Source: Shouchella rhizosphaerae (GTDB lineage Bacteria > Bacillota > Bacilli > Bacillales > Bacillaceae_D). From it: 64,000 nucleotides of DNA. Location of the stretch: contig NZ_FRBS01000001.1 in NCBI RefSeq assembly GCF_900142675.1, forward strand, positions 434,001 to 498,000, read 5' to 3'. A program made the position numbers and the translations under genes. Every line of letters begins with the position of its first letter. Position 1 is the stretch's first letter. Under the pieces are notes generated by a model. That model worked only from the letters and a program-made list of their open reading frames with translations. It made no database searches and had not been told where the DNA came from. Shown here one piece after another: positions 7,521 to 57,494 of the stretch.

Positions 7521-7591
7521 CAGGCCTAAGTTGTAGCGATATTTTGAATATGGTATTATGAATAATTAACGAACGTTTTTAAGCGTTTGAG

Positions 7592-7665
7592 GTCGATAAA
7601 ATCACTCAGACTGATAGAAAACGCTTGTCAAACGACGAAGTATGCGAGCGTTTGTCTACAGTCTG
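7592..7665 (+). repeat. Stem-loop repeat element, copy 1 (complete)
   Basis: The left end is GTCGATAAAATCACT then CAGACTGATAGAAAACGCTTG; the right end, read on the minus strand, is CAGACTGTAGACAAACGCTCG. The two ends are an imperfect inverted repeat of about 21 bases (7607-7627 and 7645-7665) around a loop of 17. It lies 43 bases upstream of the aspartokinase start. Matching ends occur at 50442-50540, 53046-53160 and 57430-57462. Confidence 0.8.
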
Positions 7666-7707
7666 AAACGTTTTTTAGTTTAGAAAGAGAGTGGGGCTGG
7701 AGAGAAC

Positions 7708-20119: not shown

Positions 20120-20130
20120 AAAATGATCCA

Positions 20131-20150
20131 GGCTGATAGGAAACGCTTGT
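20131..20150 (+). repeat. Degenerate left end of the stem-loop repeat
   Basis: GGCTGATAGGAAACGCTTGT differs from the copy at 7592-7665 at two or three positions over 20 bases. No clean right end is seen before the next gene; it lies 160 bases upstream of the RuBisCO-like gene. Confidence 0.5.
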
Positions 20151-50418: not shown

Positions 50419-50441
50419 TACGTTGCAAAGTCATACGGGTT

Positions 50442-50540
50442 GGTAGAAAACGCTTGTCTGTTAAATACAAATAACACGGGTGTGCTTACAGAAATGATCG
50501 TTTCAAAGTATATGAACGAATCGATGCGAGCGTTTGTCTA
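50442..50540 (+). repeat. Stem-loop repeat element, copy 2 (expanded)
   Basis: The left arm GGTAGAAAACGCTTGTC (50442-50458) and the right arm ATGCGAGCGTTTGTCTA (50524-50540) match copy 1 over 16-17 bases each, but the interior is longer (65 bases) and the outer CAGACTG arms are replaced. GTCGACAAAATCAC, the outer flank of other copies, appears at 50586-50599. It lies between prpB and mmsB. Confidence 0.7.
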
Positions 50541-50548
50541 TAAATGTG

Positions 50549-50571
50549 AGAGCCTGCTTGGCAGGCTCTTG
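50549..50571 (+). terminator. Weak terminator or hairpin after prpB
   Basis: GAGCCTGC pairs with GCAGGCTC, but the T-run is poor. Confidence 0.4.
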
Positions 50572-50614
50572 AGCTTATGCTAAAGTCGACAAAATCACCA
50601 GAGGGGGAGATGTC

Positions 50615-52977: not shown

Positions 52978-53045
52978 TAAAGGGAACGTTGTTATCGCTT
53001 AAAAACCAGTGTCTACTTTTAGAGCCACCCGCAAAAGGCAGGTGG

Positions 53046-53160
53046 CTCAGACTGTAGGCAAATCGTTCGTTGCTTCTCAAATGTGTTGGAACAGCCTGTG
53101 CCAAGTTAAAAAACATAGCTAACTGTACGGCATCAGAGAAGCATTTTCTATCAGTCTGAG
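53046..53160 (-). repeat. Stem-loop repeat element, copy 3 (inverted)
   Basis: CTCAGACTG at 53046 and its reverse complement CAGTCTGAG at 53160 bound a 115-base element. Read on the minus strand the left end is CTCAGACTGATAGAAAATGC, matching copy 1, and the right end corresponds to CAGACTGTAGGCAAATCG. It lies between convergent mmsA and the hydrolase gene. Confidence 0.75.
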
Positions 53161-54342: not shown

Positions 54343-54641
54343 TTATATAAGGCTAGGCTACTTTTTTCTGCCTGCGGGAGTTGATGCCTCCCGTCTATTA
54401 CTACTTACGCCGCCCCCTTTCAGGCGCAGGGAAAAGACTTTTTGTACATGCAATTCAAACTGGCGCGGCCTCGGAGCCGCAAGGACGATCGAGAGGAAGG
54501 GCTTTCGTTGTCTTGTGAGCAAAAAATTCCATAGAGTCTAGCTTTTTGTCTCTTCTAACGGAACAAGAAGATAGAATACAGAAGCTTATAAGCAGGCAAA
54601 GCACGGAGAATGGCGTTGATGACCAAGTGCTTTGCTTTTTT
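54343..54641 (+). ncRNA. Candidate structured non-coding RNA (unassigned, 6S-like size)
   Basis: From the promoter, about 205 bases run to GTCTAGCTTTTTG at 54548. Several stems are visible: CGGGAG/CTCCCG, CGCC/GGCG, GCGGCC/AGCCGC, and a closing stem of GGCTAG... at 54351 with ...CTAGC at 54542. A perfect GCAAAGCAC/GTGCTTTGC hairpin with a T-run follows at 54596-54641. No open frame is credible. The size and closing stem would fit 6S RNA, but the identity is not established. Confidence 0.5.
54596..54641 (+). terminator. Strong terminator downstream of the candidate RNA
   Basis: GCAAAGCAC pairs perfectly with GTGCTTTGC, followed by TTTTTT. Confidence 0.85.
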
Positions 54642-54752: not shown

Positions 54753-54812
54753 ATTTTCCAATGATAATCTTGGTTTACTTGATGAACCAATTACAAGTGA
54801 AATAATACTCAA

Positions 54813-54951
54813 CTTCGGGGCAGGGTGTAAATCCCGACCGGCGGTGATAAGGCAATCGCCTTTTAGTCCGTGACCCGCATAAGCATTACTCGTGCGTGCG
54901 GTGGATCTGGTGCAAATCCAGAGCCGACAGTAATAGTCTGGATGGGAGAAG
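54813..54951 (+). ncRNA. FMN riboswitch (RFN element)
   Basis: The conserved RFN parts are present in order: CTTCGGGGCAGGGTG, CCCGACCGGCGGTGATAAG, CCTTTTAGTCCGTGACCCG, GTGGATCTGGTGCAAATCCA, GAGCCGACAGT, and GATGGGAG at the end. FMN binding would lead to termination before the rib genes. Confidence 0.97.
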
Positions 54952-55037
54952 TTCGAGCGCAAACGTTTAAAAAAACGGTTATGTTTGCTTTATTTGTTGT
55001 GCGCAAAAACGTATGAAACCATACGTTTCTTTCCTGT

Positions 55038-57429: not shown

Positions 57430-57462
57430 GCATTTTCTATCAGTCTGAGTGATTTTGTCGAC
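57430..57462 (-). repeat. Stem-loop repeat, left end only (solo)
   Basis: On the minus strand GTCGACAAAATCACT continues CAGACTGATAGAAAATGC, which matches copy 1 at all but two of 33 positions. No right end is found within 100 bases, where the ribH coding region lies. Confidence 0.8.
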
Positions 57463-57467
57463 AACTC

Positions 57468-57494
57468 AAACGGCCCTGAAGGGGCCGTTTTTTT
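57468..57494 (+). terminator. Terminator of the rib operon
   Basis: AAACGGCCC pairs with GGGCCGTTT, followed by TTTT. Confidence 0.85.

Follow-up and report, generated by a model that had tools for sequence, protein, structure and literature searches.

An intergenic repeat of Shouchella is a mobile element that duplicates its target stem-loop and shares its ends with IS1182-family transposons

The repeat described here from Shouchella is very probably a non-autonomous transposon of MITE type that a DDE transposase of the IS1182 family mobilises in trans, and that duplicates the stem-loop into which it inserts. It was followed up from a window of 64,000 nucleotides (positions 434001-498000 of contig C4 in the 4.24 Mb genome G000). 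The repeat is real and mobile. It has a stem-loop target that is duplicated on insertion, autonomous elements with matching ends, and a conserved fold that is biased to one strand. The MITE-like character put forward in the original prediction is borne out by its terminal repeats and many copies, by duplicated targets together with an exact empty site, and by autonomous partners whose ends match.

The sequence at all five places where the repeat had been described agrees with that description (Table 1). Similarity among the copies is above that of shuffled sequence, with four left-end matches (at most three mismatches) in the window against a shuffle mean of 0.03, and none of 100 shuffles of the window reaching four. 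The right-end pattern has one match in the window, which is exact, and GTCGAYAAAATCAC has three exact copies there and seven with at most two mismatches (0.97 expected). The family is also present elsewhere in the same genome, in which 53 left-end matches (at most three mismatches) are found against one for a reversed-pattern control, and 61 right-end matches against none in the control. A profile search, as had been proposed, was carried out with a covariance model of 124 nt, and gave 44 matches in G000 and 72-82 in three other Shouchella genomes. Among 12 further genomes of the genus, left-end matches number 77-86 in G004, G010 and G011, and 0 or 1 in the other nine. An exact 21-mer occurs in 59 stretches of a species-genome collection that may omit records of the window's own genome, all of them from Shouchella clausii AKU0647 or S. 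tritolerans FJAT-45399.

The canonical Shouchella unit is ~154 bp long, and consists of the left end GAGGTTGTCGACAAAGTCGATAACC, itself a short hairpin, followed by ~5 nt and a 124-nt hairpin that runs from CAGACTGATAGAAAACGCTTG to CGAGCGTTTGTCTACAGTCTG. Terminal inverted repeats are present, with GAGGTTGTCGACAAAG (Shouchella) or CAGWGTGTAGACAAAG (elsewhere) on the left and CAGACTGTAGACAAAC on the right, the right repeat forming the right arm of the hairpin. Among 70 full copies (68 from Shouchella and two from other genera), the core is exactly 124 nt in 40 and 161 nt in seven, and varies in the others. The 74-bp copy in the window is an internally deleted member of this ~154-bp non-autonomous transposon. 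Positions 7592-7665 had been taken as the full unit, which does not hold: the core is 161 nt in the orthologous copies of two relatives and 59 nt in the window, and in the orthologue alignment the window's left end lacks 12 bp relative to G004 and G011. Nor is GTCGAYAAAATCACT a separate leader, being the tail of the true left terminal repeat. Of the proposed 74-base unit with its fixed leader, the recurrence stands, and the boundaries and nature of the unit are revised. A duplicated flanking stem-loop, which had been missed, abuts both sides of intact copies elsewhere; the window's own copies are decayed, and the stem-loop is one-sided or weak there.

Table 1. Parts of the repeat copies and of their flanking stem-loops in the window (window coordinates).
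Feature	Position	Strand	Basis
Copy 1, weak target palindrome, left copy	7572..7588	+	alignment with G004/G011/G010
Copy 1, left-end remnant	7589..7606	+	orthologue alignment
Copy 1, hairpin core, 59 nt, internally deleted; right arm is the right terminal repeat	7607..7665	+	
Copy 1, target, partial right copy	7666..7676	+	sequence and orthologue alignment
Decayed copy, left arm only, 2 mismatches	20129..20147	+	left-end pattern match
Copy 2, degenerate 112-nt core	50436..50547	+	
Terminator-like stem-loop adjoining right end of copy 2	50548..50569	+	by eye
Apparent remnant left end GTCGACAAAATCACC of a further, presumably lost copy	50585..50599	+	pattern match
Copy 3, 111-nt core	53048..53158	-	
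Terminator-like stem-loop adjoining right end of copy 3	53023..53047	-	locus L006
Copy 4, left arm; truncated just after, close to the lumazine synthase (DMRL_synthase) stop codon	57429..57447	-	
Copy 4, left terminal repeat remnant GAGTTGTCGACAAAATCACT	57448..57467	-	sequence and pattern match
Terminator-like stem-loop flanking left end of copy 4	57468..57490	-	locus L007

Rfam places a BsrC small RNA at 54435-54521 (-) and an FMN riboswitch at 54807-54957 (+) of the window. No match at the gathering threshold was returned for the element in the window or at six other loci, and permissive scans of two copies gave a best E of 0.46; the reading as a member of an Rfam family was dropped. A promoter reading was also dropped, as was a tRNA-linked one, there being no tRNA in the window. 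Some loci have a more complex structure. Hairpin cores are arrayed in tandem at L118 (three) and L139 (four, of which the fourth is weak), and two adjacent cores in L139 have a 126-bp period. At L116, the stem-loop, left end and spacer are found on either side of the core (a 43-bp scored match; by eye ~57 bp), as would result from insertion of one element into another or from recombination between two. In genome G120, assembly gaps (NN) lie inside the hairpin core of several copies (L229, L248, L249 and L253), so draft assemblies may undercount the family.

Intact copies carry a whole terminator-like stem-loop directly outside both ends, as direct copies of mostly 20-31 bp. When the left and right flanks were scored against each other, 38 of the 70 full copies exceeded the 99% level of swapped-flank controls (99% level 20; maximum 50, probably because orthologous sites of different species get paired). 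In other genera, duplication is above the control level (99% level 22, maximum 26) in 37/61 copies, or 37/52 without those of a genus with genomes of 2.3-2.8 Mb, which supplies nine copies, none of which passes the test. This set was drawn from 82 model matches, leaving out four Shouchella rows, four repeat views of one place, seven further tandem-array cores and six others (L258, L274, L275 twice, L283 and L284). The mean folding energy of the duplications in other genera is -11.0 kcal/mol, compared with -1.9 for length-matched random stretches, none of which reaches the median fold energy of the duplications. The copies in which duplication is not above the control level (32/70 and 24/61) are assumed to reflect decay or one-sided loss.

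In a wider set of 111 unique copies (in which, as in the 70-copy set, orthologous sites in different species count separately), clear duplication is seen in 66 at a score cut of 36, which by construction excludes duplications shorter than 18 bp; 60 of these 66 are 20-31 bp long. In 59/66 cases an ORF of 80 codons or more has its 3' end at the duplicated site, a count that takes all such ORFs, possibly including spurious ones. A T-run (at least 4) follows the right stem-loop copy in 30/66 and an A-run precedes the left copy in 36/66, with both runs in 12 and at least one outer run in 54. The inner side of the stem-loop is the transposon end and usually has no T-run, a short TTTT being kept in some left copies (L096, L022). 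Orientation relative to genes is mildly biased (24 co-directional, 10 opposed, p 0.024).

Target-site duplications and empty sites had been named as tests of mobility, and both were found, with one exact empty site resolved in detail. At this site G011 has AAGCCCTGTCGTGATGACAGGGCTT, then the 154-bp element, then AAGCCCTGTCGTGATGACAGGGCTT-TTT. G004, with aligned flanks 100% identical to those of G011, has the stem-loop AAGCCCTGTCGTGATGACAGGGCTT once and no element, and the more distant G010 has a single stem-loop with a slightly different loop. The net insertion is therefore 154 bp plus a 25-bp duplicated stem-loop, and the identity of the flanks to those of G004 suggests that it is recent. At the site of window copy 1, the element is also present in G004 and G011 (161-nt core) and absent in G010. 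A search with 40 joined flanks within element-centred loci, which had been chosen for carrying elements, found no empty site.

A transposase with matching ends was also sought, and IS1182-family transposons of ~1.5-1.9 kb with near-identical ends were found. G010 has five copies of 1536-1537 bp, bounded by CAGCCTGTCGACAAAG and CAGACCGTAGACAAAA (in two copies CAGAGCGTAGACAAAA), of which four have a duplicated stem-loop at their edges and one has none. Their transposase scores above the IS1182 cut-off (NF033551) and carries the domains DDE_Tnp_1_6 and DUF772. Palindromic targets of such partners were found in other genomes as well as in G010. Of 30 IS loci in other genomes, 14 have an end pair and 16 have none, the duplication score being part of the criterion by which end pairs were chosen. 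A duplicated stem-loop is present at 9/14 paired loci, eight of them having no more than one mismatch per end; the five without duplication each have three mismatches at one end, and hence are doubtful. The left end of the IS at L338 is 15/16 identical to that of the Shouchella MITE and has the duplication, with a transposase match that covers the C-terminal third only, and the right end is 16/16 identical to that of the MITE in IS elements of two genomes. When the IS ends were folded, the terminal repeat lay in a hairpin stem at 8/14, often followed by a T-run (by eye). The 124-nt core has no match at any of 23 IS loci. Among the left-end sites listed without a core (20 regions), none belonged to an autonomous element of which the core forms an end; by eye, these regions mostly have a left end beside a stem-loop, with the core decayed, shortened or missing. 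L320 and one L328 site were rejected as left ends, since the matches are inside genes.

A search with the G010-type transposase in 49 element-bearing genomes gave matches in 29, many of them distant or fragments, and none in the other 20, several of which are drafts. G004 and G011 have no match to the partner transposase, and IS1182 matches there are only weak and partial, even though the G011 insertion looks recent. Thus, the helper must either be gained and lost over time or be a different enzyme. Not every IS1182 element is a partner, since the IS1182 group of G198, with several intact copies, has other ends (by eye). In G010 another IS1182 group, whose ends begin GGGGTTGTCCC... (also written GGGGTTGTCCCAAAAG), has replaced a terminator that is still present at the orthologous site of G000, as published for IS1272, so a single genome has both the duplicating and the replacing mode. 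Comparison of L179 with L018 shows that the replaced terminator stem-loop adjoins a decayed MITE copy.

The distribution of the element is far wider than the clausii group. In the order, the core model matches 44 of 299 sampled genomes and 25 of 116 genera, with at least 11 matches in 19 of the 44. The left end in other genera is CAGWGTGTAGACAAAGT or close to it, with 129 matches (at most one mismatch) in 12 chosen genomes against none for the reversed control, and by eye it nearly always follows a stem-loop (not clearly so at L228 and L240). In a class-wide sample 22 of 398 genomes are positive, of which 14 belong to the genus of 2.3-2.8 Mb genomes, two loci of which have 33-35% G+C. Three genomes of this genus (G439, G449 and G513; L261, L262 and L263) have hairpin relatives directly upstream of apparently the same ORF, in tandem at L262. 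One g28-type copy, used as query, had no match in plasmid and phage collections, and the exact 21-mer is absent from viral_contigs.

The fold of the core is strongly conserved. In an alignment of 78 distinct sequences 93.7% of cells are paired and both partners vary in 30 of 34 pairs; none of 500 shuffles reaches any of the covariation measures, and pairing falls to 27-43% when the partner is slid by 1-3 columns. Fitting the alignment to the model favours structure, yet single pairs show all four Watson-Crick types. In the inner pairs of 46 sequences below 85% identity, G.T outnumbers A.C by 112 to 32 (74 to 32 without pair 20-105, which is mostly G.T), with a nominal p of 5.5e-5 that is indicative only, as the sequences are related. 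From this excess, one strand appears to be favoured. The unpaired A29, A73 and A94 of the core are invariant in the 46 sequences. Relatives of the hairpin are also found directly before 23S rRNA in the 16S-23S rRNA spacers of another genus, as placed by Rfam at L269, L271 and L275 (G529, G419 and G655) and by the same 23S start at L273 and L274. Six spacer copies have lost the transposon ends and kept most of the outer stem by other base pairs; their whole structure comprises 173 Watson-Crick, 14 G.T, 11 mismatched and 24 gapped cells. Several further hairpin matches in each of these genomes may be other rRNA operons.

Fold conservation, strand bias and the spacer copies together favour an RNA role for the hairpin, and the 124-nt fold is predicted to act as RNA. 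It may, alternatively, matter as DNA only, serving the transposase or a host protein as a site in cis, which is plausible if short of an even chance. Hairpin ends appear to be a trait of the group, since the IS partners also form them, and the outer terminal-repeat pairs of the element have no strand bias (G.T 11, A.C 7). However, the G.T excess of the inner pairs is unexpected from a symmetric cruciform, the spacer copies keep most of the outer stem without transposon ends, and the IS loci do without the 124-nt core. A tentative proposal, itself less likely than not, is that the hairpin is a mobile structured RNA with a host function that rides on IS1182-type ends: transcribed as the 3'-UTR of host genes after landing in terminators, it would so have spread in Bacillales, and would then have become fixed in the 16S-23S spacers of another genus, where the ends are no longer needed.

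An RNA fold and copies in rRNA spacers would also be expected if ordinary duplication or recombination, without a transposase, had spread a structured RNA gene or cis-regulator, but the exact empty site with target duplication, and ends that match IS1182-type transposons with the same target habit, make this very improbable. The REP-like alternative of the original prediction, taken as REP-type repeats mobilised by a RAYT (HUH) transposase, shares with the element its palindromic, extragenic and many-copied nature. It is contradicted by target duplications of 20-31 bp, by DDE-type partners and DDE-transposon ends, and by a unit of ~154 bp rather than a 20-40 bp palindrome, and can be considered extremely improbable. 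To our knowledge, no REP/RAYT element has long target duplications or DDE-transposon ends. REPs are described as 20-40 bp long and tagged GTAG/CGTC (PMC3733652, in the part available). A relationship of the group to bcr1 of the Bacillus cereus group is suggested by similar size (147-167 bp, PMC2267715) and an intergenic, structured, MITE-like nature (PMC3446304, both in excerpt). It is nevertheless highly unlikely, as bcr1 is associated with TTTAT and occurs in the B. cereus group only, so far as the available part of PMC6542083 describes it, whereas here a whole stem-loop is duplicated and the element is found in Shouchella and many genera of the order.

With the MITE moved by an IS1182-type transposase as the preferred reading, the closest known system is IS1272. 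This member of the IS1182 family replaces its target stem-loop and leaves no duplication, and stem-loop duplication is drawn for it as model pathway b; it is said there that some IS1182 members had been found to target palindromes in an earlier survey, which gave no detailed data (excerpts of PMC5678879). The same excerpts describe a DDE transposase of the IS1182 family and inverted-repeat targets, some just downstream of genes, as in the partners found here (PMC5678879). In contrast to IS1272, the partner group duplicates the stem-loop, and the MITE has no transposase and carries the 124-nt conserved hairpin. The stem-loop-replacing mode of IS1272 is thus not that of the MITE or its partners, in which the target is duplicated.

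EFAR and Efa-1 are the same family, and EFAR inserts at terminators. Efa-1 of Enterococcus faecalis is 163 bp long with a pair of adjacent stem-loops (PMC2267715, in part), and EFAR is listed as a MITE in a portion of PMC3733652; by description alone, they resemble the element in size, stem-loops and MITE class. Also compared by description only are bcr1, which as partly documented is alike in size, intergenic position, folding and MITE-like nature and differs in being TTTAT-associated and confined to one species group (PMC6542083, in excerpt), and Bhal-1 of Bacillus halodurans, a 74-bp stem-loop family with 36 copies in an alkaliphilic member of the Bacillaceae (PMC2267715, in part). No published account of the family was recognised in the openly available literature searched, apart from ISfinder and the primary EFAR and bcr1 papers. 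MITEs themselves are known; new here is stem-loop duplication together with a conserved structured core in a MITE of an IS1182-like group.

For the movement of the element in trans, its chemistry, transcription and termination, we infer the following course from sequence comparison. The transposase would join the element ends at the 5' feet of the target hairpin, on two strands, and gap repair would then duplicate the whole hairpin. One outer stem-loop would keep its T-run (or A-run), and the inner copy would usually lose its T-run. As the targets are mostly terminator-like, the outer terminator should stay working, and termination would survive there. As the inner stem-loop usually has no T-run and the outer one keeps its own, transcripts would read through the element, which would become a structured 3'-UTR of the host gene.

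The group documents, with an empty site, DDE transposons that duplicate a complete terminator-like stem-loop, and provides natural examples of the stem-loop-duplicating pathway that was drawn as a model for IS1272. It also includes a strongly covarying RNA-like fold of ~124 nt that lies outside Rfam and is present in four Shouchella genomes at 44-82 copies apiece. Because the whole stem-loop is duplicated, insertion should leave termination working, which would amount to a built-in safe-harbour strategy.
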